DNA of 64,000 bases from Microbacterium croceum. Its GTDB lineage: Bacteria > Actinomycetota > Actinomycetes > Actinomycetales > Microbacteriaceae. The notes under the pieces are model-generated. The model did no database searches. It was not told where the DNA came from and saw only the letters and a list, made by a program, of their open reading frames with translations. Position numbers and translations under genes: made by a program. Positions 10,424-60,950 of the stretch are shown in pieces (position 1 is the stretch's first letter; each line of letters opens with the position of its first letter). The stretch spans positions 124,001-188,000 of the forward strand of contig NZ_JAHWXN010000001.1 of the NCBI RefSeq assembly GCF_023091245.1. The letters run 5' to 3'.

Positions 10424-10449
10424 CAGTTCTCTCCTCTCGGTGCGGCTCG

Positions 10450-10546: not shown

Positions 10547-10568
10547 AGCTCCCCGATCCGCGCCCGCA

Positions 10569-16610: not shown

Positions 16611-16915
16611 TTCTTCGGCTCCATGCTCCTGGCGAGCTCGAGGTCGGCCTCACGCCACCCCTCGCGCGCGTCATCGATGCGGGTCTTCATCTCTTCGAGC
16701 TCACGGCGCAGCGTCTCGCGCTTGTCGTCCCAGGCGGACTCGAACTCGTCGGCGGCGCGAGCAAGTCTCGTGTCCCCCATCGGCTCGCCGATCGCCTCGA
16801 GGAGCCTGCTGGTGCGCGCGCCGGCACCCTCGTCGCCGAACTCGCCCATGATCACGCCGAGCGCCTCACTCAGCGCCCGCATCGACTCGAGCGGGATGTC
16901 CACTCCATCTGCCAT
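16607..16915 (-). CDS. WXG100-like (ESAT-6 family) small helical protein
   Basis: A 102-residue, fully helical protein with two long helices split near residue 45 and an FESAWDDK turn where the WXG motif normally sits; the Gly is replaced by Asp. Size, hairpin layout and 4-nt overlap with the larger downstream protein fit an Esx-type partner that is secreted as a heterodimer. The gene opens a compact minus-strand series down to 13384. No EccC ATPase or other secretion machinery lies in the window, so the apparatus must be elsewhere if this is a true substrate. Confidence 0.65.
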   Translation of the reverse strand: MADGVDIPLESMRALSEALGVIMGEFGDEGAGARTSRLLEAIGEPMGDTRLARAADEFESAWDDKRETLRRELEEMKTRIDDAREGWREADLELARSMEPKK

Positions 16916-19124: not shown

Positions 19125-19162
19125 ACCTGTCATAACAGGTATGCTCACTTGTTATTACAGGT
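19125..19162. promoter_or_regulatory. Tandem operators ACCTGTnnTnACAGGT before the six-gene operon
   Basis: Site 1 (19125-19140) is ACCTGTCATAACAGGT, a palindrome with perfect 6-bp arms; site 2 (19147-19162) is ACTTGTTATTACAGGT. Their centres are 22 bp apart, two helical turns, so two dimers could bind on one face. The same core TGTnATnACA occurs at 28624, 37975, 38003 and 60251. The HutC-type GntR at 39481-40329 is the candidate binder. Nothing else is recognised in the 18970-19199 gap. Confidence 0.65.
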
Positions 19163-19199
19163 TGCGCAGCGCCGCAGCATCCGCCACGAGGAGCACCGC

Positions 19200-19808
19200 A
19201 TGCCCGAGTTCCACACCCCGCCGATCTCCCCGATGGCGATCGCCTTCGACGCCGAGAGGCTCACGCTCTCCCCCGAAGGGCCCACGCTCACACGGCGGAT
19301 GTCCGACCTCGAAGGGCTCTTCCTCGACGGCGACGCGTGGGCCGCGGCATCCGCAGGCGACAACCCGGTCGTGTACACCGTGGTCAGCTCCCCGGTGCCC
19401 GAGATCGACCGCGAGCTCCCCCAGTCGATCACCACGATCATGCCGGGCGACACCTCCGGCGAGCTGTGGATGACGAAGGGCCACCAGCATCCGAACCACC
19501 AGGGCGAGATCTACCTCGCGCTGAAGGGCCGCGGCGGACTGCTGATGTTCGACGGCGAGCGCACCGAATGGCTCGACATGCTCCCCGGCACGATCGGCTA
19601 CATCCCGCCGGGCTGGGCGCACCGCTCGGTCAACACGGGCGACGAGCCCTACGCGTTCCTCGCGGTCTACCCGGGAGGCGCCGGCCACGACTACGGCTGG
19701 GTGCTCGATCACGGCATGGGTTCCCGGGCCTACCGCGGCGCAGAGGGCGCCGTCGACCTGCGTCCGTACTCGGCGCCCGCCGACTCGACCTCCGCCCCCA
19801 CGGCATAG
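19200..19808 (+). CDS. Cupin-type glucose-6-phosphate isomerase-like enzyme
   Basis: A 202-residue protein of the cupin-fold phosphoglucose isomerase family (GPI of archaea and some bacteria), which interconverts an aldose and ketose 6-phosphate with a bound metal. Metal ligands are visible in KGHQHPNHQGEIYLALKG (two His and one Glu) and PPGWAHRSVN (His). The ATG at 19200 follows ACGAGGAG; a longer frame upstream would run through the operators and is not used. It is the first gene of a compact plus-strand operon. Since the genome surely has a housekeeping GPI, this copy may act on a different sugar phosphate. Confidence 0.85.
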   Translation: MPEFHTPPISPMAIAFDAERLTLSPEGPTLTRRMSDLEGLFLDGDAWAAASAGDNPVVYTVVSSPVPEIDRELPQSITTIMPGDTSGELWMTKGHQHPNHQGEIYLALKGRGGLLMFDGERTEWLDMLPGTIGYIPPGWAHRSVNTGDEPYAFLAVYPGGAGHDYGWVLDHGMGSRAYRGAEGAVDLRPYSAPADSTSAPTA

Positions 19809-19817
19809 CCTGCGACC

Positions 19818-21308
19818 ATGCTCATCGCGCACGACCTCGGCACGACCGGGAACAAGGCCTCGCTCCACCATGACGACGGCCGTCTGATCGCTGCGGTCAC
19901 GGTCCCCTACCCTGCGCACTTCGCGGCCGGCGGCATCGCCGAGCAGAACCCGACCGACTGGTGGGAGGCCGTCGTCGCCGCCACCCGCGACCTGCTCGCC
20001 CGCACGGACACGGCGCCGAGCGCGGTCGCCGGTCTCGTGGTGAGCGGGCAGATGATGGGCGCCGTGCTGCTCGACGCCGACGGCGAGCCCGCGCGCCCGG
20101 CGATCATCTGGGCCGACACACGCGCCGGCGCGCAGCAGCGCGAGCTCGAGGCCGCCCTCGGCGCCGAGCACGCGTACGGCATCCTCGGCCACCGGCTGAA
20201 CCCGACGTACTCGGTCGAGAAGATCATGTGGGTGCGCGACAACGAGCCCGACGTCTGGGCCCGCGTGCGTCGCGTCTGCGTGGCGAAGGACTTCATCGTG
20301 CTGCGGCTCACCGGCCGCCTGGCGACCGACCGCTCCGACGCCTCCGGCACGAACGCCTACGACCAGCAGACCGGCACCTGGTCGGACGAGGTGCTGCAGG
20401 CCGCCCGTCTCGACCCCTCGCTGTTCCCCGAGGTGCGGGAGTCCACCGCGATCGCCGGGACCCTGACGGATGCCGCGGCCGCTGCCCTCGGACTGCACAC
20501 CGGCGTGCGCGTGGTGATGGGCGGCGGCGACGGCCCCATCGCGGCGGTGGGCTCCGGCGTGGTCGCACCCGAGGACGGCGCCTACGTGTGCCTGGGCACC
20601 TCGTCGTGGATCTCGTTCGCCGCCGACCAGCCCCTCCACGACCCCGCGATGCGCACCTTCACGTTCGACAACGTGGTGCCCGGCTCGTTCGTGCCGACCG
20701 CCACGATGCAGGCCGGCGGAGCATCCGTGCAGTGGATCGCCGAGGCCCTCTCGGCCGATCCCGCCCACCCCGAGACCGGCCACCTCACCGCCGAGGCCTC
20801 GGCGGACGTCGACACCGAGGGCCTGTACTTCCTCCCCTACCTGCTGGGCGAGCGCTCACCGCTCTGGGACCCCGACGCCCGCGGAGCCTTCGTCGGCCTC
20901 GCGCGCCACCACACCAGGGCGCACCTCATGCGCGCGGTCCTGGAGGGCACGGCGTTCAATCTGCTCACCTGCATCCAGGCCTTCCGGGCGTCCGGCGCCG
21001 TGATCGACCGCATCGATGCGGTCGGCGGCGGCGCGCAGAGTGACGTGTACCTCTCGGTGCTCGCCGATGTGTGGGGTGTTCCCGTGCGGCGACGCACGAT
21101 CGTGGAGGAGGCCAACAGCCTCGGCGCCGCCGTCACGGGCGCGGTCGGGCTCGGGCTGGCGGACTTCGCGGCCGCGCGCGCGCTCAGCGAGGTGACCGAT
21201 GAGTTCACCCCGGATGCCGGGCGCCACGCGGTCTACGCCGAGCGTCACGCCCGGTTCGCCGACGCCTACACGGCACTCGCGCCCTGGTTCGCCGGCGGGT
21301 CGCGCTGA
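19818..21308 (+). CDS. FGGY family carbohydrate kinase (xylulokinase-like)
   Basis: A 496-residue sugar kinase with the two FGGY ATPase-fold domains: phosphate-1 loop HDLGTTGNKAS, sugar-contact segment ASGTNAYDQQTGTWSD, and the C-terminal LLGERSPLWDPDARGAFVGL plus VGGGAQSDVYLSVLADVW. It phosphorylates a pentose, hexose or polyol in the cytosol; closest in layout to xylulokinases, but these motifs do not fix the substrate. It begins 9 bp after the cupin isomerase and its stop overlaps the next start by one base. Confidence 0.9.
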   Translation: MLIAHDLGTTGNKASLHHDDGRLIAAVTVPYPAHFAAGGIAEQNPTDWWEAVVAATRDLLARTDTAPSAVAGLVVSGQMMGAVLLDADGEPARPAIIWADTRAGAQQRELEAALGAEHAYGILGHRLNPTYSVEKIMWVRDNEPDVWARVRRVCVAKDFIVLRLTGRLATDRSDASGTNAYDQQTGTWSDEVLQAARLDPSLFPEVRESTAIAGTLTDAAAAALGLHTGVRVVMGGGDGPIAAVGSGVVAPEDGAYVCLGTSSWISFAADQPLHDPAMRTFTFDNVVPGSFVPTATMQAGGASVQWIAEALSADPAHPETGHLTAEASADVDTEGLYFLPYLLGERSPLWDPDARGAFVGLARHHTRAHLMRAVLEGTAFNLLTCIQAFRASGAVIDRIDAVGGGAQSDVYLSVLADVWGVPVRRRTIVEEANSLGAAVTGAVGLGLADFAAARALSEVTDEFTPDAGRHAVYAERHARFADAYTALAPWFAGGSR

Positions 21309-22261
21309 TGGGCGTCATCCTGGTCACCAGCCGTTCCTTCTCCGACGGCGACCTCGACCTGGTCGAGCGCGCCAGCCGCGCCGGGCACCGGATCCTGCGC
21401 GGGCCGGCCCACCACGACCTCGACGAACTCCGCTCCCTGCTCCACGGCGCCGATGCGTGGATCGCGGGCACCGGCGAAGTCGCAGAGGCGCATCTCGCCG
21501 TCGCCCCCAAGCTCAAGGTCATCGCCCGCTACGGCGTGGGCACCGAGGCCGTCGACCTCGACGCGGCGCGTCGCCGCGGCATCCCGGTCACCAACACCCC
21601 CGGGGCGAATGCGGATGCCGTCGCCGACCACGCGGTCGGCCTCATGCTCTCGATGCTGCGCTTCATCCCCGACGGCGACCGCCGCGTGCGCGACGGCGAC
21701 TGGTCCGTACGACGAGGGCGCGAGCTGGGCGCGGCGACGGTCGGCATCGTCGGGTTCGGGCGCATCGGCCAGGGCGTCGCGAAGCGGCTGAGCGGTTTCG
21801 GATCGCGCATCGTCGCGGCCGACCCGTACCTCCCCGCCGACCTCGTACGCGCGAACGGTGCCGAGCCGGTCGAGCTCGACGAACTGTTCCGCATCGCCGA
21901 CGTCATCACGCTGCACGCCCCCGGCGGTCAGCTGCTCGTGGATGCCGGTCGCCTCAGCGGCATGCGCCGCGGCACGGTGCTGGTGAACACGGCCCGCGGC
22001 GACCTCGTCGAGGAGGCGGCGATCGCCGACGCCCTGCGCGACGGCATCCTCGCCGGGTTCGCCGCCGACACGCTCTACGGAGACACCGCCGCGACCCACA
22101 GTCCGCTGCTGGCCGCCGACCTCGCCGACCGCGTGATCGTCACGCCGCACCTCGGCGCGCAGACCACCCAGGCCGTCGACAACATGGGCTCCCTCTCGCT
22201 CGACGACGTCATCGCCGTGCTCAAGGGCGCCGAGCCCGCCCACCCCGTGACCGCTCGCTAG
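21308..22261 (+). CDS. D-isomer-specific 2-hydroxyacid dehydrogenase
   Basis: A 317-residue NAD-dependent dehydrogenase of the D-3-phosphoglycerate dehydrogenase group. The dinucleotide fold reads VGIVGFGRIGQGVAKRL, followed by the family signature with Arg in NTARGDLVEE, then TPHLGAQT (catalytic His). It oxidises or reduces an alpha-hydroxy or alpha-keto acid. It is translationally coupled to the kinase and lies 9 bp before the next gene. In this setting a phosphorylated sugar acid is a reasonable but unproven substrate; no regulatory serine-binding domain is present. Confidence 0.9.
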   Translation: MGVILVTSRSFSDGDLDLVERASRAGHRILRGPAHHDLDELRSLLHGADAWIAGTGEVAEAHLAVAPKLKVIARYGVGTEAVDLDAARRRGIPVTNTPGANADAVADHAVGLMLSMLRFIPDGDRRVRDGDWSVRRGRELGAATVGIVGFGRIGQGVAKRLSGFGSRIVAADPYLPADLVRANGAEPVELDELFRIADVITLHAPGGQLLVDAGRLSGMRRGTVLVNTARGDLVEEAAIADALRDGILAGFAADTLYGDTAATHSPLLAADLADRVIVTPHLGAQTTQAVDNMGSLSLDDVIAVLKGAEPAHPVTAR

Positions 22262-22270
22262 GAGTCCCCG

Positions 22271-23236
22271 ATGTCCTCTTCCCTCACCACCGACGCGCCC
22301 CCGGCGCCGGATGCCGCGACCGCCGACTACATGGGCTTCGTCGGCGTCAGCACCGGCTCCTCGTCGATCATGCAGGTGTTCCCGCGCTGGGCCGAGGTGC
22401 TGGGGTTGCCCACGCGCAACCTCGTCGGACACGATCTGCCGATGGACGCGACCCCGGCGCAGTACATCGCGATGGTCGAGCAGATCCGCGACGACCCCCG
22501 TCACCGCGGTGCCCTGGTCACCACGCACAAGATGAACGTGTACGCCGCGGCATCCGGCCTGTTCGACGAGCTCGACCCGTTCGCGGTGTCGTGCAGCGAG
22601 ATCTCCAGCATCTCCAAGCGCGGCGACCGGCTGATCGGCCGGGCCAAGGATCCGCTCACGGTCGACCTCGCCCTGAACGACTTCCTGCCGGCCGACCACT
22701 TCGCCCGCACCGGAGCGGAGGTCGTCATCCTCGGTGCCGGCGGCTCGGGCACCGCGCTGAGCTGGGCCCTCGCCGAGCGTGCGGATACCCCGTCGAAGGT
22801 CACCGTCACGGCCCGCGACGACGAGAAGCTCACGCACCTCCGCGAGGTCCACGCGCAGCACGGCACCCCTGAGGGACTCATCACCTCCGTCCGCACCGAC
22901 ACCGCGGAGCACGCAGCCGCCCTCGTCGCCGCGGCTCCGGCCGGCTCGCTGATCGTCAACGCCACCGGCCTCGGAAAGGACCGCCCCGGCTCGCCCCTGA
23001 CGGATGACGTGGTGTTCCCCGAGAACGCGGTCGTGTGGGAGTTCAACTACCGCGGATCGCTGGAGTTCCTGCACCAGGCGCGCGCGCAGGAGGCCGCGCG
23101 CGCGCTGCACGTGGTCGACGGATGGCGCTACTTCATCCACGGCTGGTCGCAGGTCGTCGCCGACGTGTTCGAGCTCGAGCTCACGCCCGAGATCGTCGAA
23201 CAGCTCGCCGACGCCGCGGAGTTCGCCCGCCGATGA
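22271..23236 (+). CDS. Shikimate dehydrogenase-like NAD(P) oxidoreductase
   Basis: A 321-residue enzyme with the shikimate/quinate dehydrogenase architecture: substrate domain with catalytic Lys in VTTHKMNVY, and a Rossmann domain with GAGGSGTALSWAL. The length is 40 residues more than typical AroE, and the substrate-domain motif differs (THK rather than the usual PHK). A role in aromatic amino-acid synthesis is unlikely because it sits in a sugar operon; it probably oxidises a polyol, cyclitol or sugar acid. Its stop overlaps the next start by 4 nt. Confidence 0.85.
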   Translation: MSSSLTTDAPPAPDAATADYMGFVGVSTGSSSIMQVFPRWAEVLGLPTRNLVGHDLPMDATPAQYIAMVEQIRDDPRHRGALVTTHKMNVYAAASGLFDELDPFAVSCSEISSISKRGDRLIGRAKDPLTVDLALNDFLPADHFARTGAEVVILGAGGSGTALSWALAERADTPSKVTVTARDDEKLTHLREVHAQHGTPEGLITSVRTDTAEHAAALVAAAPAGSLIVNATGLGKDRPGSPLTDDVVFPENAVVWEFNYRGSLEFLHQARAQEAARALHVVDGWRYFIHGWSQVVADVFELELTPEIVEQLADAAEFARR

Positions 23237-24180
23237 TCCGCACGGTCCTCGGAGACATCGACCCGTCGCTGCTCGGGCCGACGAACTATCACGAGCACCT
23301 GTTCCAGATCACCCCGCTCCTGCCGGGTGACGAGCTCGACGACGAGACGCGGTCGACGACCGAGGCCGGACTGCTGCGCGACAGCGGATTCGCCGCCATG
23401 GTCGACGCGACCCCGTTCGGGCTCGGTCGCAACCCCGAGGCGGTCGCGCGCATCAGCACCGCGACCGGACTGCACGTGGTGGCGACGACCGGACGCCACC
23501 GTGAGGCGCACTACGACGCGCACCATCCGACCCGGTCGCAGGACGCCGATCAGCTCGCGCAGCAGTTCATCACCGAGATCACCGAGGGGATGCCGCAGAC
23601 GGATGCCGCAGCGCACGGCCCCCGCGCCCAGGCGCCGGACGGCTCGACCGTGCGCGCCGGCATCCTCAAGGGCGGCATCGACTACTGGCGCATCAGCGAC
23701 TTCGAGCGCACGACCCTGCGGGCACTGGCCGCGGCCCACCGCGCGACCGGCGCCGCGATCATGGTGCACCTGGAGTTCTGCACGGCCGCGCACGAGGTGC
23801 TCGACCTGCTCGCCGCCGAGGGTGTGACCGCAGAGCGGGTGGTGCTCGCCCACGCCGACCGTGACCCCGACGCCGGTCTGCATGCCTCGCTCGCGGAGCG
23901 CGGCGCCTACCTCGGCTACGACGGATTCGCGCGGCCGCGCACCCGCTCCGACGCCGAGCTGCTCGTGCTCACCGCCGCGGCGGTCGACCGGGGTGCCGGC
24001 GAGCGGATCGTGCTCGGCGGCGACGTCGCGCGCCGCACGCGGTACAGCGCCTACGGCGGCATGCCCGGACTCGCCTACCTCGGCGAACGCTACCTGCCTC
24101 GCCTGCGCGACCTGATCGGCGGTGCGGCGGTGGAACGGATGCTCATCACCAATCCCGCACGCCTGTTGACGCTGTCCTGA
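23233..24180 (+). CDS. Phosphotriesterase-family lactonase-like hydrolase
   Basis: A 315-residue amidohydrolase-superfamily TIM barrel. The binuclear metal site is visible: His20 and His22 in NYHEHLF, a Lys in GILKGGIDYW that is carboxylated in family members, His in IMVHLEF, His in VLAHADRD, and Asp in LGGDVARR. PTE relatives in sugar operons are known to open phosphorylated sugar lactones, which would fit a route in which a sugar phosphate is oxidised to a lactone. The ATG at 23233 overlaps the previous stop; the longer upstream frame is a shadow of the preceding gene. Confidence 0.85.
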   Translation: MIRTVLGDIDPSLLGPTNYHEHLFQITPLLPGDELDDETRSTTEAGLLRDSGFAAMVDATPFGLGRNPEAVARISTATGLHVVATTGRHREAHYDAHHPTRSQDADQLAQQFITEITEGMPQTDAAAHGPRAQAPDGSTVRAGILKGGIDYWRISDFERTTLRALAAAHRATGAAIMVHLEFCTAAHEVLDLLAAEGVTAERVVLAHADRDPDAGLHASLAERGAYLGYDGFARPRTRSDAELLVLTAAAVDRGAGERIVLGGDVARRTRYSAYGGMPGLAYLGERYLPRLRDLIGGAAVERMLITNPARLLTLS

Positions 24181-24239
24181 CCCCTGCCTCCCTCCCCTGC
24201 CTCCCTCCCCTGCCCGCTCGAGCCACCACGAGGAGCCTC

Positions 24240-24536
24240 ATGTCCGAGCCGACCATCCTGCACGCGACGTTCACCGCACGCCCCGGAGCCGGGGATCAGG
24301 TCGCCGCACTCCTGCGCGACTTCGCCGAGGGCGTGCGCGCGGAGGAGGGCAACATCGTCTTCGACGCCACCCGCCTGGTCGACGACTCCGACCGCTTCTT
24401 CGTCTATGAGGTCTACCGTGACGACGCGGCGTTCCAGGCGCACCTGGCCTCTCCCGCTGGCGTGCCCTTCAACGCCGCGCTGCAGGAGCTCATCGTCGAG
24501 CCCTCGTCGCAGCTCACCTTCCTCCGCCGCATCTGA
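24240..24536 (+). CDS. ABM-fold (antibiotic biosynthesis monooxygenase/LsrG-like) protein
   Basis: A 98-residue dimeric alpha/beta-barrel ferredoxin-like protein. It keeps the family pattern: ILHATFTARPGAGDQVAALL, NIVFDATRLVDDSDRFFVYEVYRDDAAFQAHL. Members include small monooxygenases and LsrG, an isomerase of phosphorylated AI-2. The operon also has an FGGY kinase, as the lsr operon does, but lsrF is absent, so an AI-2 role is only a thought. RBS CGAGGAG precedes the ATG. The 59-bp gap before it has a short CCCCTGCCTCCCT tandem repeat. Confidence 0.82.
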   Translation: MSEPTILHATFTARPGAGDQVAALLRDFAEGVRAEEGNIVFDATRLVDDSDRFFVYEVYRDDAAFQAHLASPAGVPFNAALQELIVEPSSQLTFLRRI

Positions 24537-24807: not shown

Positions 24808-25803
24808 TCACTCGTAGAGAACTGCCGCGATCTTCGGGTCGTCGATGTTCGTCTTGTCGTACCAGTACGAACCGGTGTCGTAGAACTCCTCGACGTCCTT
24901 GCCGTTGGCGGCGTCGTACGCTGCCTGCACGACCTGTGCGCCGATGCCGATCGGGTCCTGCGTGATGGCGCCGGCCATCGTGCCGTCCTTGATCGCATTG
25001 ATCTGCGCTGCGCCGGAGTCGAAGCCGACGATCGTGAGCTTGCCCTTCTCGAGGCCGAGCTCGTTGACCGCGTTCACGACGCCGATCGCGGAACCCTCGT
25101 TGGTGCCGTAGATGCCCTTGAGGTCAGGGTGCGCCGCGATCATGGCCTTCGCGATGTCCGCCGACTTCAGGTGGTCGCCGTCGCCGTACTGGATGTCGAC
25201 GATCTTGATGTCGGGGTAGTCCGCCTCGATCTTCTCGACGAAGCCGTCACGACGCTCGACACCGGTCGAGTTGATCTGCGAGTGACCGACGATGCCGACC
25301 TCGCCCTTGCCGCCGATGAGCTCGGCCATGTGCTCTGCCGCCAGCGCGCCGGCGACCTTGCTGTCGGTGGCGGAGAGGCTCAGCCCCACGTCGCCATCGC
25401 ACGGTGCGTCGAAGTACACCACGGGGATGTCCTTGGCCTTGGCCTGCTCGAGCGGGGTAACGCAGGCCTCGGGGTCGAGGGCGGCGTACGCGATGGCATC
25501 CGGTCCCTTGTCGATCGCGGTCTGCAGCATCTGCAGCTGCGCGTCGATCTCGGTCTCGGCGGCGGGGCCTTCGAAGGTGATGTCGACGCCGAGCTCGGCG
25601 GCGCGCTCCTCCGCGCCCTTCTTGACGGCCTGCCAGAACTGGTGCTGGAAGCCCTTCGAGACGAGTGCGATGTACATCTTGTCGCCGCTGCCGCCGTCGC
25701 CACTGCCGGCGTCGCCGCCGCCCGTGTCGCCCGCGCATCCGGCCATGACGAGTGCCGCCGAGGCGACGAGTGCCGCGAATGCGGTCTTCTTGCCGAACTT
25801 CAT
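24808..25803 (-). CDS. Ribose-type ABC importer, sugar-binding lipoprotein
   Basis: A 331-residue periplasmic-binding-protein-like lipoprotein of the RbsB/pentose family. The signal peptide ends in the lipobox LVMAGC. A Gly-rich linker (GGGDAGSGDGGSGD) is followed by the two-lobe sugar-binding domain (ALVSKGFQHQFWQAVKKGAEE; KGIYGTNEGSAIGVVNAV). It is the last gene of the importer operon, 145 bp after the permease. Sugar specificity is not readable; the operators in front of the operon point to both the L-fucose and the TGTnATnACA regulons. Confidence 0.92.
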   Translation of the reverse strand: MKFGKKTAFAALVASAALVMAGCAGDTGGGDAGSGDGGSGDKMYIALVSKGFQHQFWQAVKKGAEERAAELGVDITFEGPAAETEIDAQLQMLQTAIDKGPDAIAYAALDPEACVTPLEQAKAKDIPVVYFDAPCDGDVGLSLSATDSKVAGALAAEHMAELIGGKGEVGIVGHSQINSTGVERRDGFVEKIEADYPDIKIVDIQYGDGDHLKSADIAKAMIAAHPDLKGIYGTNEGSAIGVVNAVNELGLEKGKLTIVGFDSGAAQINAIKDGTMAGAITQDPIGIGAQVVQAAYDAANGKDVEEFYDTGSYWYDKTNIDDPKIAAVLYE

Positions 25804-25947
25804 GGAAACTCCGTTGTTTGTGAGTGCCGACTGCGTCGACGGTGTGGACATACCTGGTGCTGTGTGCCGTGCGGATCGCTCCGCGGTCTCGGCTGGTGCC
25901 GATCGGAGGGTGGCGGGCACGGGTGCCACGCTCCGTGGTTCAGAGGG

Positions 25948-26982
25948 TCAGGTGCGGGTGCGGTTGCGCAGCGAGTCGAAGAAGACGGCGATCAGCACGA
26001 CGATGCCGACGACGATGTTCTGCCACTCGGACTGGATCGACAGGATGCGCAGGCCGTTGACGAGCACGCTCATGATGAGGGCGCCGATCACGGTGCCGAG
26101 GATCGATCCGCGGCCACCGAGCAGCGAGGTGCCGCCGATGATGACGGCCGCGATCGCCTGCAGCTCGTAGCCGGTGCCGATCTGCGGCTGCGCTGAGCCG
26201 AGTCGGGCGGCGATCACGACGCCCGCGATGCCGGTGAAGGCGCCGGCGAACATGTAGACGAGGATCGTCCAGCGACGCGTGTTCACGCCGGAGAGGCGGG
26301 TCGCCTCTTCGTTGGAGCCGATCGCGAACGTGTAGCGCCCCAGCAGCGTCTTCGACAGCACGAGCCAGGCGACGACCGCCAGGATGCCGGTGATGAGCAC
26401 CGCGTTGGGGAGGCCGGGGATCAGCGTGCCGATGGCGAAGGCCTGCTGGAATCCGTTGTCCGCCGCGAAGTAGATCGGCGCGACACCCGAGATCACGAGG
26501 GCCAGACCGCCGGCGATCATCATCATCGCGAGCGTCGCGATGAACGGGGGCAGCCGGAGGAAGGTGATGTTGACGCCGTTGATCAGGCCCATCAGCACAC
26601 CTGTCGCGATGCCGCCGATCACGCCGACCCACACGGGCAACCCCATCTTGGTGACGAAGACACCGGTCATCACGGCGGCCAGCGCCATGCCGGTGCCCAG
26701 CGACAGGTCGATGCCGCCGGTGATGATGACGAAGGTGGTGCCGAGCGCGAGGATCGCGATCACGGCTGTCGAGAGCAGAACGGTGGTGATGTTGCTCACC
26801 GTGAAGAAGCTGGGGCTGGCGATCGCGAAGAAGACCACCAGCACGACGAGCGTGCCGAAGGCGAGCGACTGCTGGGCCTGCTTCTTGAGGAACCCGACGA
26901 TGTCGCGCTTGTCGGTGTTCTCCGAGACCGCCGTCTGGATGATCGTCGTCGTCGACGATCCGGGCTGCTGTGGAGCGCTCAT
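25948..26982 (-). CDS. Ribose-type ABC importer, permease
   Basis: A 344-residue inner-membrane permease of the RbsC/XylH type with about ten helices. It has the typical segments GLPVWVGVIGGIATGVLMGL (in part) and the C-terminal RGSILGTVIGALIMSVLVNGL. Its start overlaps the ATPase stop by one base. It forms the channel for the binding protein at 24808-25803. Confidence 0.93.
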   Translation of the reverse strand: MSAPQQPGSSTTTIIQTAVSENTDKRDIVGFLKKQAQQSLAFGTLVVLVVFFAIASPSFFTVSNITTVLLSTAVIAILALGTTFVIITGGIDLSLGTGMALAAVMTGVFVTKMGLPVWVGVIGGIATGVLMGLINGVNITFLRLPPFIATLAMMMIAGGLALVISGVAPIYFAADNGFQQAFAIGTLIPGLPNAVLITGILAVVAWLVLSKTLLGRYTFAIGSNEEATRLSGVNTRRWTILVYMFAGAFTGIAGVVIAARLGSAQPQIGTGYELQAIAAVIIGGTSLLGGRGSILGTVIGALIMSVLVNGLRILSIQSEWQNIVVGIVVLIAVFFDSLRNRTRT

Positions 26983-28484
26983 CAGTCTTCCTCCCCGTGT
27001 GCTGCGAGTTGCATGATCTTCTCCTGGCTTGCTTCCTCGTTGCGGAGGGTTCCCGTGATCCGGCCGTTGGCGAAGACCGCGATGCGGTTCGCCACGCGAA
27101 GGATCTCCGGCAGCTCCGACGAGATGACGATGATGGATTTGCCCTGCTCGGCGAGCAGCTGCATGAGGCGGTAGATCTCTTCCTTCGCGCCGACGTCGAT
27201 CCCTCGGGTCGGCTCGTCGAAGATCAGGACGTCGCAGTCGCGCATCAGCCAGCGGGCGATGACGACCTTCTGCTGGTTGCCGCCGGAGAGCAGTTTGACG
27301 ACCTGGTTGACCGAGGGCGTCTTGACCCGCAGCTGCTGGACGTACTCCTTGGTGCGGTTCTTCGCCTTGCCGTCGCCCATCCAGCCGATGGCGTTGGCGT
27401 AGGAGCCGAGCGAGGCGAGCACCGTGTTGAAGGTGACGTCCTGCTCGAGCATGAGGCCGAGGAGCTTGCGGTCCTCGGAGAGGTAGCCGACGCCGTGCTT
27501 GACGGCATCCGCGGGCTGGCTGATCTTGGTCGCCCGCCCGCCGATCGTGACCGTGCCTCCGTCACGGGGGTCGGCGCCGATCACCGCACGAGCGGTCTCG
27601 GTGCGACCGGCGCCCATGAGACCGGCGAAGCCGAGGATCTCCCCCTTGTGCAGCTCGAAGGAGACGTCCTTGAGCAGCGCCTTGGTGGAGAGCCCTTCGA
27701 CCTTCAGCACGACGGGGTCGCCTTCATGTTCGCGCGCCTGCGGACGGGTTCCCTCGTCGATCGGACGTCCGACCATCATCTCGATGATCTTCGGGATGCT
27801 GACCTCGGACTTGTCGAGTGATCCGATGTATGTGCCATCGCGGAGCACGGTGACCCGGTCGGCGAGGCGACGCAGCTCGTCCATGCGGTGCGAGATGTAG
27901 ACGATGCCCGTCCCGCGCGCCTTGAGCTGCTCGATCAGTACGAACAGCGTCTCGACCTCGGAGTCGGTGAGCGCGGATGTCGGCTCGTCCATGATCAGGA
28001 CCTTGGCGTTGAACGACAGCGCCTTGGCGATCTCGACCATCTGCTGCTCGGCGACCGTGAGCTCCCCGACGAGCTGGCGGGGGTTCAAGCGGATGTCGAG
28101 GCGCGTGAGCAGCTCCGTGGTCTGCGCGTTGAGCTTGCGCTCCGACAGGAACGGGCCCGTCTTGGGCTCACGGCCTACGAAGATGTTCTGCGCGACGGTC
28201 AGATCCGGCATCAGGTTGAGCTCCTGATGGATGATCGTGACCCCCAGTTCCTGCGCCTGGAGCGGGCTGGTGAGCTCGACCTCCTGGCCCTCGAACGTGA
28301 TCGTGCCCTCGTCTTTGGTGTAGATCCCGGAGAGGATCTTCATGAGCGTCGACTTGCCGGCGCCGTTCTCGCCCACGAGCACGAGCACCTCGCCGGCGCG
28401 CACCTCGAGGTGCACATCCTTCAGCGCCTGCACACCGGGGAAGCCCTTGCTGATTCCCTCGACTCTGAGAATGGGATCGCTCAT
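26982..28484 (-). CDS. Ribose-type ABC importer, double ATPase
   Basis: A 500-residue RbsA-like protein with two fused nucleotide-binding domains. The first has a good Walker A GENGAGKSTLMK, and an LTVAEQQMVEIAKAL signature. The second has GLMGAGRTETAR as the degenerate P-loop, with LSGGNQQKVVIARWL and a Walker B LIFDEPTRGID, as is normal for this family. It drives sugar import. It is the first gene of the importer operon; two different operator types occur within 160 bp of its start. Confidence 0.94.
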   Translation of the reverse strand: MSDPILRVEGISKGFPGVQALKDVHLEVRAGEVLVLVGENGAGKSTLMKILSGIYTKDEGTITFEGQEVELTSPLQAQELGVTIIHQELNLMPDLTVAQNIFVGREPKTGPFLSERKLNAQTTELLTRLDIRLNPRQLVGELTVAEQQMVEIAKALSFNAKVLIMDEPTSALTDSEVETLFVLIEQLKARGTGIVYISHRMDELRRLADRVTVLRDGTYIGSLDKSEVSIPKIIEMMVGRPIDEGTRPQAREHEGDPVVLKVEGLSTKALLKDVSFELHKGEILGFAGLMGAGRTETARAVIGADPRDGGTVTIGGRATKISQPADAVKHGVGYLSEDRKLLGLMLEQDVTFNTVLASLGSYANAIGWMGDGKAKNRTKEYVQQLRVKTPSVNQVVKLLSGGNQQKVVIARWLMRDCDVLIFDEPTRGIDVGAKEEIYRLMQLLAEQGKSIIVISSELPEILRVANRIAVFANGRITGTLRNEEASQEKIMQLAAHGEED

Positions 28485-28623: not shown

Positions 28624-28639
28624 ACCTGTAATAACATCT
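28624..28639. promoter_or_regulatory. TGTnATnACA-type operator upstream of the importer
   Basis: ACCTGTAATAACATCT keeps the left arm ACCTGT and the core TGTAATAACA of the 19125 and 37975 sites, with a degenerate right arm. It is 140 bp above the importer start and 48 bp below the epimerase stop. A HutC-type GntR is the candidate binder. Confidence 0.45.
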
Positions 28640-28686: not shown

Positions 28687-29556
28687 TCAGTGCAGTCGGA
28701 TCGAGTCCACCGCGACGAGCTTGTCGCGGATGAACGCGTTCGCGTGCACCCCCAGTTCGGCGTTGTCCGTCCAGAGGTTGCGCCAGATGCCGAGCATCCG
28801 ACTCAGGTCCGGGGCGACCACGGCCGACGAGAACGACTCGAACACGATCGGACCGTCGTAGCCGATCCGACCGAGCGCCTTGAAGAACGTGTCGAAGTCG
28901 ACGGTTCCCGTACCGAGGTAGCCGCGGTGGCTCTCGCCGATGTGCACGTAGTGCAGGCTCGGCTCGGCATCCAGAACCGGCGCGAACATGTCCGACTCCT
29001 CGATGTTCATGTGGTACGTGTCGAGGTGGATGCCGAGGTTCGGACGATCGACCTCGGCGAGGTACTCGATCGCCTGCCGCGCGGTGTTCAGCACATTGGT
29101 CTCGTAGCGGTTCACGACCTCCAGGGCGACGGACACCCCTCGCGCGGCTGCATGATCGGCGACCTTGGCGATCGCCCGGCGACTGCTCACGAGCCCCGCG
29201 GGCGTGACCGGCTCCATGTACTTCTTCATGGCGCTGTAGATCACTCCGCAGAAGTGCTGTCCGCCCAGGTCGGCGAGCACGTCCACAGCCCGCAGCAGCA
29301 GCGCCTCACCCGCCGCGACGACGGCCGGATCGGAACTGGTGACATCGGTCGCCTCGGAGAGTCCGAGCGACGCGCTCACGGCGAGGTCGTGCTCCTCGAG
29401 CGACTCCTTCGCCGCCTGCACGTCGAAGGCGAACGGGTCCATGAGCGGGAACTCGATGAGGTCGAAACCAGCCTCTCTGGTCTTCTCCACCGAGAGCCGG
29501 ATGCCGTCGGCGTCGAAGTTCCCTGTCCAGACGAGCCCGTGGCAGCCGATGTTCAT
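28687..29556 (-). CDS. Ketose 3-epimerase-like TIM-barrel enzyme
   Basis: A 289-residue enzyme resembling D-tagatose/D-allulose 3-epimerases. The metal site reads ALEVVNRYE (Glu), IHLDTYHMNIEE (Asp), YVHIGESHRGYLGTGTVD (His) and VFESFS (Glu). The HLDTYHMN and GESHRG stretches are characteristic of this group. It would epimerise a free ketose at C3 in the cytosol. Start ATG 29556 follows GAGGGA. It is divergent from a LacI regulator; two perfect 14-bp palindromes lie between them, so this enzyme is probably the target. Confidence 0.85.
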   Translation of the reverse strand: MNIGCHGLVWTGNFDADGIRLSVEKTREAGFDLIEFPLMDPFAFDVQAAKESLEEHDLAVSASLGLSEATDVTSSDPAVVAAGEALLLRAVDVLADLGGQHFCGVIYSAMKKYMEPVTPAGLVSSRRAIAKVADHAAARGVSVALEVVNRYETNVLNTARQAIEYLAEVDRPNLGIHLDTYHMNIEESDMFAPVLDAEPSLHYVHIGESHRGYLGTGTVDFDTFFKALGRIGYDGPIVFESFSSAVVAPDLSRMLGIWRNLWTDNAELGVHANAFIRDKLVAVDSIRLH

Positions 29557-30899: not shown

Positions 30900-31319
30900 T
30901 CAGGCCGAGGCGTGCCCCACGACGCCCTTGCGCAGCAGCGCGTTGCCGTATTTGCGGGTCTCGCCCGTGCGCACCATGAGGTACGCGCTCTTCGCCACCT
31001 CGTAGTACGCGAAGCGCTCGACGAAACGGGTCGTGTCGAGCGTGGTTCCCGCGGCCGCCATGAGCTCGTGCTGCACGTCGAGCACGGCGCCGTCGGCCGA
31101 GGTCATCAGGTCGATGCCCGGCGCGTCGTCGAGCGGCAGCACGCTGCGGATCGCGGCCACGACCTCCGGCGTCGACGTGCCGGGCAGATCGACCACCCGC
31201 GCGCCGAGCGCCCAGGCCGGGAAGTGCGCGTCGGCGATCACCACGGAGTCGGAGTGCCCCATCCGGTCCAGGTGCAGCAGCAGCTCGCCGGTGAGCAGCG
31301 GATTGATTCCTTCGAGCAC
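30900..31319 (-). CDS. fucU: L-fucose mutarotase-like protein (RbsD/FucU family)
   Basis: A 139-residue protein of the FucU/RbsD fold that speeds anomer exchange of a free sugar. It keeps the FucU pattern GHSDSVVIADAHFPA with the conserved histidine, and the FAYYEVAKSAYLMVRTGE and YGNALLRKGVV stretches. The gene starts with GTG at 31319 behind GAGAGGAG. It lies 44 bp after the dehydrogenase in the L-fucose operon, matching a role in supplying the proper anomer to that enzyme. Confidence 0.85.
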   Translation of the reverse strand: MLEGINPLLTGELLLHLDRMGHSDSVVIADAHFPAWALGARVVDLPGTSTPEVVAAIRSVLPLDDAPGIDLMTSADGAVLDVQHELMAAAGTTLDTTRFVERFAYYEVAKSAYLMVRTGETRKYGNALLRKGVVGHASA

Positions 31320-31362
31320 GACGGCTCCTCTCTCGGTCGGGTCGGTCTGGTCGGATGCGGCC

Positions 31363-33625: not shown

Positions 33626-33678
33626 GGGGGTTCCTCTCCATGCACGGAGAAATCCCGTGCAGACCTCTTGGAGTGTAA

Positions 33679-37294: not shown

Positions 37295-37957
37295 TCAGGC
37301 CCCGAGACGCACCATGGCCGCGTCGAACTCGGCGGCCGAGCTGTCGCTGACCCCGTGGAACATCACCTGGTCGATCACGTCGGGGGCCGCGGTGAAATAG
37401 GGCACTCCGGCCAGACGCAGTCCGGTGATGTCATCCGCCGAGCGCAGCGATGCCGCGAGCACGTTCGATCCACTGCCCGCGCACACCTCCTGCATCCGGG
37501 CGATCACGAAGTCCCCGTCGATGCCGGCGTCCCGCATGCGACCGAGGTAGGGCGCGATGTAGTGCGCTCCGATCGAGGCGCAGGCCAGTGCCTGCGCGAT
37601 CGAGTAGACGGCGGTGACGAGCACCGTGGCGCCGTCGCGGACCAGAGCGGATGCCGCAGCGAAACCGTCGGCGGTCGCCGGCACCTTCACGGCCACCCGG
37701 TCGCCGAGCGCGCGGATGCCCTCGGCGTTGCGCAGGAAGGAGGCGGTGTCCCCTCCCCAGGTCTGGAAGAAGATCTCGCGCGCTCCCTCCTCCGCCCAAC
37801 GCGCATAGAGGTCGGGGATCTCGGCGGCAGCGCGTCCGCCGCGCTCGAGGATCGTGGGGTTGGTCGTCACACCGTGAACGACCCCTGCCCTGAGGAGCCG
37901 GGAGACGCGATCGACGTCTGCGCTGTCGACATAGAGGCGGGGCGCGATCGCGGTCAT
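37295..37957 (-). CDS. Transaldolase-family aldolase
   Basis: A 220-residue transaldolase/fructose-6-phosphate aldolase-family TIM barrel. The Schiff-base lysine is in DRVAVKVPATADG. Start LYVDSADVDRVSRLL and VTTNPTILERGG are typical. The short length is that of the FSA/TalC subgroup, which can cleave or transfer dihydroxyacetone units. It is divergent from the ribokinase group with two operator-like sites in between. The substrate cannot be read. Confidence 0.88.
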   Translation of the reverse strand: MTAIAPRLYVDSADVDRVSRLLRAGVVHGVTTNPTILERGGRAAAEIPDLYARWAEEGAREIFFQTWGGDTASFLRNAEGIRALGDRVAVKVPATADGFAAASALVRDGATVLVTAVYSIAQALACASIGAHYIAPYLGRMRDAGIDGDFVIARMQEVCAGSGSNVLAASLRSADDITGLRLAGVPYFTAAPDVIDQVMFHGVSDSSAAEFDAAMVRLGA

Positions 37958-37974: not shown

Positions 37975-38018
37975 AACCTGTCGTTACAGGTTCAGCTTCG
38001 GCTAATGTAATGACAGCC
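37975..38018. promoter_or_regulatory. AACCTGTCGTTACAGGTT and TGTAATGACA operators
   Basis: A perfect 7-bp-arm palindrome at 37975-37992 and a second, weaker site with the core TGTAATGACA (38006-38015) lie in the 123-bp divergent promoter of the transaldolase and ribokinase genes. The latter operon ends with the HutC-type GntR, the natural candidate for binding. Confidence 0.7.
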
Positions 38019-38080
38019 GCCGACGATGTCAAAGACACAGATGGCGTACCCGCATGCTGTCGAAGAAGATCAGGAGCGAC

Positions 38081-39043
38081 ATGTCTCTCGCACACCCCGC
38101 CGACCGCTCAGGCGTCGTCATCATCGGAAGCGTCACCGCCGATGTGACCACCTTCTCGCAGCGGCTCCCCGCTCGCGGAGAGACCATCCTGGGCGATGAG
38201 TTCACCCTGATGCTGGGCGGCAAGGGCGCGAACCAGGCCGTCGCGGCCGGGCGCTCCGGGGCACGCACGAGCTTCGTCGGCTGCGTCGGAGACGATCTGT
38301 TCCACGACCTCGTCGTGAACGGGCTCAGCGACGCGGGTGTCGACCTGGCCCACCTGCGCACCGTGCCGGGTCCGACCGGCATCGCCCACATCCGCGTCGA
38401 CTCCTCCGCGCAGAACGACATCGTCATGGTGCCGCTCGCGAACGCCGCGCTGAGCACCGAGCAGATCGACACCGCGCTCGCCGCCCTCTCCTCGACCACC
38501 TCTGTACTGCTCACCCAGCTCGAGACCCCCTCGGCGCTGACGGCCCACATCACCGCGCGCGGACGCGAGCACGGCATGACCGTGATCCTCGATCCCGCAC
38601 CGGCGGCTCCCCTCCCCGCGGAGGTCTGGAGCAGCATCGACATCGTCACGCCGAACGAGACCGAGGCCACGCTCATCAGCGGCATCGAGGTCACCGATGC
38701 GGACTCCGCCGAGCGCGCGGGCCGCTGGTTCCTGGAGCAGGGCGTCGGCGCCGCGGTCATCACCCTCGCCGGTCAGGGCTCGTGCGTCGTGACGGCCGAC
38801 GGCTCGACCGTGGTGCCGCCGTTCCCGGTGGAGGCCGTCGACACGACCGCCGCCGGCGACGCCTACGCGGGCTACCTCGGGGCCGCCCTTGCGAACGGGA
38901 GCACGCTCACGGATGCCGTGCGCCTCGCGACCGCCGCCGGCGCGCTCACGGTGACCAAGCAGGGAGCCTCGCCCAGCCTGCCGCTGCGGGTCGAGGTCGA
39001 CGCCTTCCTCGCCGCGCGCGAATCCGCGCCCGTGGCGAACTGA
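38081..39043 (+). CDS. rbsK: Ribokinase-like PfkB sugar kinase
   Basis: A 320-residue PfkB-family kinase: N-terminal GSVTADVTTF, LGGKGANQAVAAGRSG and the C-terminal catalytic DTTAAGDAYAGYLGAAL (Asp base). It phosphorylates D-ribose or a similar sugar. The ATG at 38081 follows TCAGGAGCGAC; an earlier in-frame ATG at 38054 has no such site. An RbsD-type pyranase follows 31 bp downstream. Confidence 0.9.
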   Translation: MSLAHPADRSGVVIIGSVTADVTTFSQRLPARGETILGDEFTLMLGGKGANQAVAAGRSGARTSFVGCVGDDLFHDLVVNGLSDAGVDLAHLRTVPGPTGIAHIRVDSSAQNDIVMVPLANAALSTEQIDTALAALSSTTSVLLTQLETPSALTAHITARGREHGMTVILDPAPAAPLPAEVWSSIDIVTPNETEATLISGIEVTDADSAERAGRWFLEQGVGAAVITLAGQGSCVVTADGSTVVPPFPVEAVDTTAAGDAYAGYLGAALANGSTLTDAVRLATAAGALTVTKQGASPSLPLRVEVDAFLAARESAPVAN

Positions 39044-39074: not shown

Positions 39075-39479
39075 ATGCGCAAGACAGCCACGACGATCAA
39101 CCCGGCGCTCTCGCGCGTGATCAGTGAGACCGGACACACCGACCTGCTGGTCGTGACGGATGCCGGCCTGCCGATCCCCCCGTCGTCGGAGCGGATCGAC
39201 CTCGCCTACCGCCCTGGCGCACCGGCGTTCCTCGACGTCCTCGACACCGTGCTCGCCGAGCTCGTGGTCGAGGGCGCGACGGTCTCGGCCGAAGTCGCGG
39301 AGAAGAGCCCAGAGGTGCTCGAAGCGCTGCGCGAGCGCTTCGCCGGCATGGGGTTCGAGATCGAGCTCATCCCGCACGTCGAGTTCAAGAAGCTGACCCA
39401 CCAGGCCCGCGCGTTCGTGCGCTCGGGGGAGTTCACCCCCTATGCGAACGTGATCCTCCACGCGGGGGTCGCGTACTGA
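39075..39479 (+). CDS. rbsD: D-ribose pyranase-like protein
   Basis: A 134-residue RbsD-family protein that catalyses pyranose/furanose exchange of ribose. It has the RbsD landmarks NPALSRVISETGHTDLLVVTDAGLPIP (in parts), with the catalytic His in GHTD and the C-terminal EFTPYANVILHAGV. It sits between ribokinase and the HutC-type regulator. The importer for this sugar may be the ribose-type system at 24808-28484, which has a similar operator. Confidence 0.92.
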   Translation: MRKTATTINPALSRVISETGHTDLLVVTDAGLPIPPSSERIDLAYRPGAPAFLDVLDTVLAELVVEGATVSAEVAEKSPEVLEALRERFAGMGFEIELIPHVEFKKLTHQARAFVRSGEFTPYANVILHAGVAY

Positions 39480-39480: not shown

Positions 39481-40329
39481 ATGAGCGAGACGATCACCAG
39501 GAGCGACACCGTGTCCGACGCCACCGGCGTCGACGCGATCGACCGCCACTCGGCGGCCCCGATGTACGACCAGCTGCGCCAGCTCATCATCGACGGCATC
39601 GCCCGCGACGGTCTGCAGCCGGGCGACCCGCTGCCCGGGGAGCACCGGCTCTGCGAGCGCTACGGCATCTCGCGCACGGTCGTGCGCCAGGCCCTCGCGC
39701 AGCTGGAGCACGAGGGCCTGGTCGAGCGGGTGAAGGGCAAGGGCACGTTCGTGTCGCGCCCGCGCACGAGCGAGAGCCTGGTGCACACGCTGGTCGGCCT
39801 GTACGACGACGTCGAGCGGCGCGGCGGCCACGTGCACAGCGACGTGCTGCGCCACGAGCGCACGACCGCCGACGAGGAGATCGCCCTGGCCCTCGACGTG
39901 CCGGTCGGATCTCCGGTCGTCGTGCTCGAACGCCTGCGGCACGTCGACGGCGAGCCGTGGTCGCTCTCCACGACCTGGATGCCGGAAGTTGTCGGCACCC
40001 TCACCCTCGGCGTCGACCTCGCCGAGCGCTCGCTGTACCGACTGCTGGCCGAGAACGGCATCGTCGCGACGAGCGGCGTGCGCTCGGCAGAGGCCACCGT
40101 GGCCACGCACGAGCAGGCGCAGCACCTCGGCGTCAGCGCCGGCTCGGCTCTGCTCCGCCTGCGCAGTGTCAGCCGCGGCGAGGACGGCGCACCGATCGAG
40201 TACTTCGTGGCCTACCACCGCGGCGATCGCTCGCGCTTCGAGTTCCAGCTGCAGCAGGAGCAGTCGCAGGCCTCGCTGCTGCACATCGACGGCGACGGCG
40301 GCACCTCGCGCGCCGGCACGGTGAGCTGA
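39481..40329 (+). CDS. HutC-type GntR regulator
   Basis: A 282-residue GntR protein with a winged helix at residues 20-90 ([40 protein letters not shown]) and a UTRA ligand-binding domain (about 105-270, [14 protein letters not shown] near the end). HutC/UTRA proteins bind sugar phosphates or related effectors. It is coupled to rbsD (one base between stop and start). The TGTnATnACA sites at 19125, 28624, 37975 and 60251 are its likely regulon. Confidence 0.88.
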
Positions 40330-60250: not shown

Positions 60251-60266
60251 ACTTGTAATGACAGGT
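60251..60266. promoter_or_regulatory. TGTnATnACA operator before the aldolase
   Basis: ACTTGTAATGACAGGT resembles the 19147 site closely and lies 46 bp before the aldolase start. It extends the candidate HutC-type GntR regulon to this distant locus. Confidence 0.6.
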
Positions 60267-60311: not shown

Positions 60312-60950
60312 ATGTCTGATCGTCTCGACCGCGCCCGCACCACCGGCATTCTCGCGGTGCTCCGCGCGCCCTCCCCCGAGCTCGCGCTCGAGGCATCCGA
60401 GGCGATCATCCGCGGCGGCGTCACCGGCATCGAGGTCACCTTCTCGACCCCCGACGCCCCCGCCGTGATCCGCGAGCTCATCGCCCGCCACGGCGACGCG
60501 GCCTACATCGGCGCGGGTACCGTGACGACGCCGGAGCAGGCCGCTCTCGCCGCCGACGCCGGAGCCGAGTTCCTGGTCAGCCCCGGCACGCTCCCCGCCC
60601 TCACCCGGTCGATGCTCGACACCGGTCGTGTCGTGATGACCGGGGCGATGACCCCCACCGAGGTCATGGGCGCGCTCGAGCTCGGCGTCGACGTCGTGAA
60701 GATCTTCCCGGCGTCCCTCGGCGGCCCGTCGTACCTCGGCGCGCTGCGCGGCCCGTTCCCCGACGCTCCCCTCATGCCGACCGGCGGCGTGAGCCCCGAC
60801 AACCTCGCCGCCTGGTTCGCTGCCGGTGCCGTGGCGGTGGGTGCAGGCGGCGACCTGGCGAACGGCGCATCGATCACAGCCTCCGACTGGACAGACATCG
60901 AGCAGCGCGCGGCTCGCTTCACCGCTGCGCTCGCCGCCACACGCGGCTGA
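60312..60950 (+). CDS. KDPG/KDPGal aldolase
   Basis: A 212-residue class I aldolase of the 2-keto-3-deoxy-6-phosphogluconate group. Schiff-base lysine in VDVVKIFPASLGG, Glu in GGVTGIEVTFSTP, and the phosphate loop MPTGGVSPDN. It cleaves a 2-keto-3-deoxy sugar acid phosphate into pyruvate and a triose phosphate. Its operator is like those of the six-gene operon, so its substrate may be made there. The start follows GGAGCTCC. Confidence 0.88.
   Translation: MSDRLDRARTTGILAVLRAPSPELALEASEAIIRGGVTGIEVTFSTPDAPAVIRELIARHGDAAYIGAGTVTTPEQAALAADAGAEFLVSPGTLPALTRSMLDTGRVVMTGAMTPTEVMGALELGVDVVKIFPASLGGPSYLGALRGPFPDAPLMPTGGVSPDNLAAWFAAGAVAVGAGGDLANGASITASDWTDIEQRAARFTAALAATRG

Follow-up and report, generated by a model that had tools for sequence, protein, structure and literature searches.

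Organization of the operon and its operator

In a 64,000-nt stretch of the Microbacterium croceum genome (contig NZ_JAHWXN010000001.1, positions 124,001 to 188,000; hereafter the window), we analyzed six consecutive plus-strand genes that appear to belong to the catabolism of an uncommon sugar. Pfam/NCBIfam profile scans assigned their families: a cupin-type phosphoglucose-isomerase-like protein of 202 amino acids (19200..19808; PF06560), an FGGY sugar kinase, probably acting on a ketose (19818..21308; TIGR01312), a D-isomer 2-hydroxyacid dehydrogenase (2HADH; 21308..22261; PF02826/PF00389), a shikimate-dehydrogenase-fold (SDH-like) oxidoreductase, probably a sugar-phosphate dehydrogenase (22271..23236), a phosphotriesterase (PTE)-family hydrolase, probably a sugar-lactone-phosphate lactonase (23233..24180; PF02126), and an ABM-domain protein (24240..24536; PF03992), seemingly a lineage-specific accessory. 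From cupin to ABM the intergenic spacings are 9, -1, 9, -4, and 59 nt, reproducing the order, position, overlaps of 1 or 4 nt and gaps of 9-59 nt reported in an earlier interpretation of these letters alone (the sequence-only reading). GC content at the third codon position was 0.91-0.94 in each of the six genes.

The paired operator claimed for this operon was also present: a motif search located CTGTCATAACAG at 19127..19138 and TTGTTATTACAG at 19149..19160, 22 bp apart center to center, with a full palindrome of about ACYTGTNATNACAGGT. The longest cupin open reading frame opens at 19062, upstream of the operator, and would place the operator within the gene; the most likely start is the ATG at 19200, behind GAGGAG. 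With up to one mismatch, CTGTNATNACAG occurs at six sites in the window (shuffle mean 0.57; six reached by 0 of 100 shuffles). A search for the operator pair with up to three mismatches gave two matches (0.01 expected), namely the pair ahead of the cupin gene with none and a second at 8096-8127 with three.

Conservation of the gene set

An alignment scan of named genomes with the SDH-like protein gave at least 573 confirmed stretches, of which the best 80 (the most similar) were kept; together with seven further stretches these make 87 loci, or 88 sources with the window. Gene families came from our own gene calling and clustering, and some clusters are clipped by locus ends. Two loci (L019 and L063) are from the same genome, and L063 was excluded solely from the count of genes following the SDH-like gene. 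At least two of FGGY, 2HADH, and cupin accompanied the SDH-like gene in 71 of the 87 loci, and all three in 64. Across the 88 sources we counted FGGY in 74, 2HADH in 72, cupin in 69, PTE in 66, ABC permease in 61, ABC ATPase in 57, a 2-keto-3-deoxy-6-phosphogluconate (KDPG)-type aldolase in 40, a ketose-3-epimerase-like protein in 37, a GntR regulator in 31, and ABM in 15. The five-gene core of cupin, FGGY, 2HADH, SDH-like, and PTE genes thus recurs; ABM, counted in the sequence-only reading as part of the operon, is an extra of some lineages and not core, because it was found in 15 of 88 sources. Since the gene set recurs in distant bacteria, we do not regard it as a chance assembly.

Loci with at least two of the three partners were assigned to seven phyla: Actinomycetota, Pseudomonadota, and, through one metagenome-assembled genome each, Bacillota (L103), Chloroflexota (L104), Verrucomicrobiota (L086), Planctomycetota (L092), and Deinococcota (L099). 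Among 396 evenly drawn Actinomycetota genomes, nine carried the SDH-like gene (E ≤1e-20), the window's included. The protein was also matched in 15 of 72,556 plasmid records, five of which were inspected (L193-L197). In those from Rhizobium (L193), Sinorhizobium (L194), Pararhizobium (L195), and Marinovum (L196), the genes for cupin, SDH-like enzyme, 2HADH, a metallo-beta-lactamase (MBL)-family protein, and a SIS-type or other regulator are consecutive, with an aldolase between cupin and SDH-like in three of the four (none is annotated there in L193); the Shinella plasmid (L197) has a different gene order. According to the deposited annotation, each of the five plasmid stretches has FGGY-type kinase genes, and L193, L194, L195, and L197 also encode dehydrogenases named as polyol-type enzymes; FGGY was likewise present in locus L025. 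In three other Microbacterium stretches (L186, L187, L190) we observed a second type of cluster with DeoC, a short-chain dehydrogenase/reductase (SDR), and a glycosidase of 810-818 amino acids (GH2-type domain found for L187), which adjoins the cupin, SDH-like, FGGY, PTE, 2HADH, and aldolase genes and may point to the source of the sugar. The DeoC-type aldolase of L187 scored 159 bits against TIGR00126 (cut-off 117.3; those of L186 and L190 were assigned by similarity), and L187 also carries an RbsD protein.

Exchange of PTE and MBL proteins

PTE was found in 64 of the 87 loci, MBL in nine, and both in one (L034), where PTE follows one of two SDH-like genes and MBL the other. Of 89 cases, 60 have PTE or MBL directly 3' of the SDH-like gene, and in 53 of the 60 the two genes overlap by 1 or 4 nt. 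UlaG is an MBL protein that hydrolyzes ascorbate-6-phosphate lactone; the MBL protein of L097, standing in for PTE, gave a weak match of 29 bits to the model of UlaG, whose cut-off is 306 bits. As far as we know, the activity common to the PTE and MBL families is hydrolysis of phosphorylated sugar lactones, and for this reason we read the PTE/MBL step as lactone opening. Phospho-furanose lactonases of Mycoplasma are members of the PTE family. According to a review, Mycoplasma lactonases hydrolyze D-xylono- and L-arabino-1,4-lactone-5-phosphate (PMC10971088). Near transketolase halves (identified by Pfam in L034 and by similarity in L189), an SDH-like + MBL pair was seen in L034 (11899-20505) and in L189 (437-9411); this second cluster of L034 has no cupin and 2HADH of its own. 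The two genes thus look like a module that can move as a unit.

Conserved residues of the enzymes

The cupin scored 68.6 bits against PF06560 (cut-off 20.7), matched PfPGI chains at E about 1e-40, and retains all six residues of cupin-type phosphoglucose isomerase (His88, His90, Glu97, and His136 as metal ligands, Tyr152 and His158 as catalytic residues); across the family, the three His and one Glu metal ligands are kept in 69/69 members and Tyr152 in 67/69. The kinase scored 404.2 bits against TIGR01312, above the XylB cut-off of 380.25, and reads GGDGP where xylulokinase 2itm has GGDN (GDN in 5vm1). In the 2HADH, whose closest relatives are phosphoglycerate dehydrogenase and glyoxylate reductase, R230, D/E259, and H281 are conserved. 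The SDH-like protein has the SDH fold along the whole chain and the Lys-Asp pair, its motifs having been placed through a structure model. It falls short of the AroE models: TIGR00507 gave 36.8 bits (cut-off 200.2) and PF08501 no match at E 0.001, and two PF08501 proteins are encoded elsewhere in the genome. PTE scored 142.5 bits against PF02126 with 3pnz as its best PDB chain; its metal ligands are conserved, with the metal-bridging Lys146 in 66/66 family members. At the positions of 3pnz Lys244, Arg275, and Tyr278, which may contact phosphate, the family has R/K (61/66 members), R (60/66), and R (59/66), respectively.

A wider regulon under the same operator

The six operator sites of the window lie ahead of the cupin gene (two), an ABC importer, an FSA-like/PfkB-RbsD-GntR locus (two), and a KDPG-type aldolase. 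On the minus strand, the importer consists of a substrate-binding protein (24808..25851; PF13407), a permease (25948..26982; assigned by position and gene clustering), and an ATPase (26982..28484; gene clustering), with the operator at 28626..28637. The nearest chains to the binding protein were 4kqc, 4wut, 4rxt, and 5dkv; the ligands of the last three are presumably D-fucose, D-arabinose, and D-tagatose, from which the sugar could not be named. An associated ketose-3-epimerase-like TIM-barrel protein follows (28687..29556, minus strand; PF01261; NF051856 165.5 bits, cut-off 300), with no operator match ahead of its gene within the window at up to one mismatch. Farther along, an FSA/TalC-like transaldolase-family aldolase (37295..37957, minus strand; PF00923 121.3 bits; TIGR00875 125.4 bits, below its cut-off of 245.95) is transcribed divergently from a ribokinase-like PfkB kinase (38054..39043, plus; TIGR02152 295.2 bits, slightly below the cut-off of 299.65), with two operators between them (37978..37989 and 38005..38016). 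The kinase gene is followed on the plus strand by genes for a D-ribose-pyranase-like RbsD protein (39075..39479; NF008761 151.7 bits, cut-off 93) and a GntR/UTRA regulator (39481..40329; profile scan). The remaining operator (60253..60264), already claimed in the sequence-only reading, stands ahead of the KDPG-type aldolase gene (60312..60950, plus; TIGR01182). A TauE/SafE-type permease (60968-61717; recognized by eye) begins 17 nt behind the aldolase and is therefore probably under the same operator.

We counted upstream operators with up to one mismatch in 36 stretches (the window, L026-L055, L059, L060, L063, L069, and L074). Sites were found ahead of cupin in 32/34, ABC ATPase in 25/34, FSA-like in 5/9, and PfkB in 5/10 genes, against a background of 7/316 other genes; the window's cupin was scored as a miss only because the count used the 19062 start, leaving L063 as the other. 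Lower counts were obtained for FGGY (10/38), probably stemming from ten loci with cupin divergent from FGGY, epimerase-like (7/32), SDH-like (1/36), and aldolase (1/12), many aldolase genes of this set being located within the operon. No operator was seen in the 36 stretches before 2HADH, PTE, GntR, binding-protein, LacI, aldo/keto reductase, or enolase-type genes. A genome-wide scan at one mismatch gave 26 sites (10 for the reversed control) but added no gene convincingly to the regulon. Of the sites beyond the window, one was inspected (about 4947 in L191); it is located ~57 bp upstream of a gene for another ABC binding protein in this genome, lacks the outer palindrome bases, and is probably due to chance.

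Judging from these comparisons, the operon and its regulon are real and conserved. We infer that the GntR protein binds the operator and thereby controls a regulon, centered on the operon, for the breakdown of an uncommon sugar. Of the six-gene system first proposed, the shared operator stands; the extent is larger, with importer, PfkB, RbsD, GntR, and FSA-like aldolase under the same operator.

Association of the KDPG-type aldolase with the operon

The aldolase scored 186.7 bits against TIGR01182 (cut-off 156.05). Glu, Thr, and Lys residues of the type E41, T70, and K130 are catalytic in the KDPG/2-keto-4-hydroxyglutarate (KHG) aldolase Eda; they are kept in 40/40 family members here, so that both the profile score and these residues place the protein in the Eda family. 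Among 79 sampled Microbacterium genomes, 26 carried the SDH-like gene at E 1e-60 and 17 a close one (E ≤1e-110), and these 17 were taken as operon-bearing. A GntR orthologue was present in 16/17 of them, the lone exception being a 77% complete genome, compared with 0/62 of the others; an aldolase orthologue (E ≤1e-80) was present in 17/17 compared with 5/62. The operator (up to two mismatches) precedes the aldolase gene in 15 of the 17, its start 51-59 bp upstream (95 bp once); of the two exceptions, G417 shows three mismatches in the site at this position, and in G316 the aldolase gene lies beside the SDH-like gene, in the operon. In genomes without the SDH-like gene at E 1e-60, the operator was found ahead of 0/6 aldolase genes (the five orthologues and a weaker match in G442), the best sites having 3-4 mismatches. 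Outside the genus, the aldolase gene lies within the cluster in Cryobacterium, Mycetocola, Arthrobacter, a Nocardioides, and an Actinomadura, among others. Overall, an aldolase gene is present in 36 of the 71 loci that have two or more partners. Its place beside the core and its co-occurrence with the operator support the earlier suggestion that this aldolase could be the last step. The genome encodes three KDPG-family aldolases. No Edd was found among its two PF00920 proteins, which score above the IlvD and far below the Edd cut-offs; because both are IlvD, the aldolase is, on this evidence, not fed by Edd, and other sources of 2-keto-3-deoxy acids are possible.

A proposed pathway and its alternatives

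Gene content, conservation, shared operator, and intact catalytic residues can be read from the DNA; from them we infer the reactions, their order, and the class of sugar. The ABC importer would take up the sugar, which would be brought to the ketose level, elsewhere perhaps by polyol dehydrogenases, a fucose-isomerase-like protein (L069; PF02952 25.3 bits, below the cut-off of 29.3), or a ketose 3-epimerase; entry at this level is suggested because proteins of these three kinds, each of which would yield a ketose, adjoin the clusters in different lineages. The FGGY kinase would phosphorylate the terminal hydroxyl of the ketose, and the cupin, a relative of archaeal phosphoglucose isomerase, would convert the ketose phosphate to an aldose phosphate. 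The SDH-fold enzyme may then oxidize the ring hemiacetal to a lactone phosphate, which PTE, or in other bacteria the unrelated UlaG-like MBL protein, would open. Oxidation of C2 by the 2HADH would yield a 2-keto-3-hydroxy-acid phosphate, and the KDPG-type aldolase would split it into hydroxypyruvate and an aldehyde phosphate (glyceraldehyde 3-phosphate from a hexose, glycolaldehyde phosphate from a pentose). Hydroxypyruvate could leave through glycerate and the PF02595 glycerate kinase of the genome. PfkB, RbsD, and the FSA-like aldolase may act on a ribose-like second sugar governed by the same regulator, or on a side product. Phosphorylation, lactone formation, ring opening, and a second oxidation had been suggested before, and they fit the conserved residues and the PTE/MBL exchange as predictions. 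Among the readings considered here, this oxidative sugar-phosphate pathway is the likeliest, and we put it forward tentatively, as a plausible account that may well need revision.

Several observations weigh against it. Both PTE and MBL are missing from the stretch in 13 of the 87 loci, and ten loci lack FGGY, 2HADH, and cupin altogether; for five of the ten, the stretch spans 13.9-20.9 kb and the SDH-like gene lies well away from its ends. Metagenome-assembled genomes, in which stray contigs may occur, are the source for five of the seven phyla. The aldolase family occurs in just 40 of 88 sources, and KDPG-type aldolases are known for 3-deoxy substrates; cleavage of a 3-hydroxy acid to hydroxypyruvate would be unusual. 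Just 40/69 cupins have His158 (Q in 27/69). PTE is far below the cut-off of the phospho-furanose lactonase model NF045706 (106.7 vs. 630 bits). The importer is not uniform: when 24 binding proteins from other loci were aligned, 15 shared 60-89% with that of the window and nine only 27-30%. Enzymes of the SDH fold normally oxidize a ring carbinol, so a lactone is no more natural a product than a 3-keto or 5-keto compound; the scheme assigns no clear role to PfkB, RbsD, and the FSA-like aldolase; and the functions of all enzymes in the set are predicted ones.

In a first alternative, with the gene set and a phosphorylated sugar unchanged, the SDH-fold enzyme makes a C3- or C5-keto-sugar phosphate, the hydrolase opens a lactone derived from it, and the 2HADH, rather than oxidizing the sugar acid, reduces hydroxypyruvate to D-glycerate. 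The affinity of the 2HADH to phosphoglycerate dehydrogenase and glyoxylate reductase agrees with this order, as do the glycerate kinase in the genome and the keto-sugar activity of the SDH-fold enzymes 7cok and 7col; 5-ketofructose reductase acts on C5. It would, however, leave the KDPG-type aldolase with no maker of its 2-keto acid: the sole dehydratase type among the families counted for the operator is the enolase-superfamily protein of a neighboring gene set (0/15 with operator). We consider this redox order unlikely.

That neighboring set (30900-36486) comprises fucose-mutarotase-like, aldo/keto reductase, and enolase-superfamily genes, together with FAH-like, SDR, and amidohydrolase-like genes recognized by eye. 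It is probably an L-fucose oxidation set and adjoins the cluster in many Microbacteriaceae loci. It has no operator match at up to one mismatch, and we rejected it as part of the pathway: aldo/keto reductase (0/26) and enolase-type (0/15) genes lacked the operator in the 36 stretches, and the set was not seen beside many other clusters.

A cyclitol-type pathway, with ring oxidation followed by hydrolytic C-C cleavage by PTE or MBL as in Thermotoga inositol breakdown, would account for the inositol-dehydrogenase-like GFO protein (283 bits, cut-off 355) and the IolM-similar zinc dehydrogenase (180.4 of 450) added in some loci, and for the resemblance of the epimerase to IolO (115.7 of 300), but the zinc dehydrogenase family occurs in 15/88 sources and the GFO family in 6/88, and an FGGY kinase with a monosaccharide-type importer suits a ketose. 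Since the cupin keeps its phosphoglucose-isomerase residues (all four metal ligands in 69/69), a cyclitol is less likely than a ketose, and of the "unfamiliar sugar or cyclitol" of the sequence-only reading we favor the former; the cyclitol route itself appears quite improbable.

Another alternative is ordinary use of xylulose or ribulose with XylB, the other genes being accessory; its xylulose form had been named beforehand as an explanation that would overturn the idea of a new pathway. The kinase does pass the XylB cut-off, and RbsD and ribokinase-like genes share the operator. This explanation is nevertheless weakened to the point of being very doubtful: where xylulokinase 2itm has D-N, this kinase has D-G-P, with the G shared by 60 and the P by 61 of the 81 family members, and FGGY, 2HADH, and cupin stand together beside the SDH-like gene in 64/87 loci, as accessory genes need not. 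We also rejected D-arabinan utilization as an explanation. M. arabinogalactanolyticum carries the cluster (L045), and its D-arabinose route is reported to use a separate locus and to lead to D-ribulose 5-phosphate through a putative isomerase and kinase (PMC10509167), which leaves this operon unexplained. Processing of autoinducer-2 (DPD), in the manner of LsrK and of LsrG, itself an ABM protein, would explain an FGGY kinase next to an ABM protein, but is hardly credible with LsrG at 34.9 of 135 bits, LsrK at 171.8 of 528 bits, and ABM in just 15/88 sources.

A stronger form of the oxidative sugar-phosphate reading is that the operon encodes an undescribed, widespread relative of the Entner-Doudoroff pathway, with SDH-fold oxidation, PTE/MBL opening, C2 oxidation in place of dehydration, and hydroxypyruvate and an aldehyde phosphate as products, so that a large family called "shikimate dehydrogenase" would carry one of its steps; this is possible, and we regard it with some doubt. 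In keeping with the claim that the genes match no known route, we found no paper with this combination in the open-access literature, a search of open-licence papers only, so that others may exist. If the proposal is correct, it would describe a new route of sugar breakdown across several phyla in which two unrelated lactonase families fill one step, and would give a metabolic role to the SDH-like family, which has at least 7994 scored protein clusters (all E 1e-10 or better); among the 120 clusters listed, those named by their source are nearly all called shikimate dehydrogenase, and the share of the family located in this gene set was tested among the fetched loci only. The regulon would offer a direct handle, since whatever induces the GntR protein should identify the sugar.

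Other genes in the window

Two further regions were noted. At 8317-12760, minus-strand genes for citrate-synthase-like, methylisocitrate-lyase-like, PrpD-like, and GntR proteins resemble, by eye, a 2-methylcitrate (propionate) cluster. At 15399-16915 lie two adjoining minus-strand genes of 403 and 102 amino acids, the shorter WXG100-like by eye.

Comparison with known systems

The Thermotoga inositol pathway (IolG-IolM-IolN-IolO) has zinc dehydrogenase, GFO, and epimerase families with some similarity to those beside some clusters, but differs from the operon in that it is not known to employ a kinase, a cupin, or an SDH-fold enzyme for these steps. The 5-ketofructose reductase of Gluconobacter (7cok, 7col) is, like the predicted function of the operon's SDH-like enzyme, sugar-acting and of the SDH fold; the likeness is structural only, at 18-19% identity. 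UlaG, the L-ascorbate-6-phosphate lactonase, is weakly matched by the MBL protein of L097, which stays far below its cut-off. The phospho-furanose lactonases of Mycoplasma share the Pfam family, the closest solved relative (3pnz), and the conserved metal ligands with the operon's PTE, which falls below the NF045706 cut-off; this comparison is by protein. The system most like the proposed route in its logic is the Entner-Doudoroff pathway (Zwf, Pgl, Edd, Eda), where a sugar phosphate likewise passes through a lactone phosphate to an acid phosphate before a KDPG-family aldolase, the last being our proposal for the operon. The operon differs in having an SDH-fold enzyme for Zwf, PTE or MBL for Pgl, and 2HADH for Edd, and its route would enter from a ketose through the cupin isomerase.

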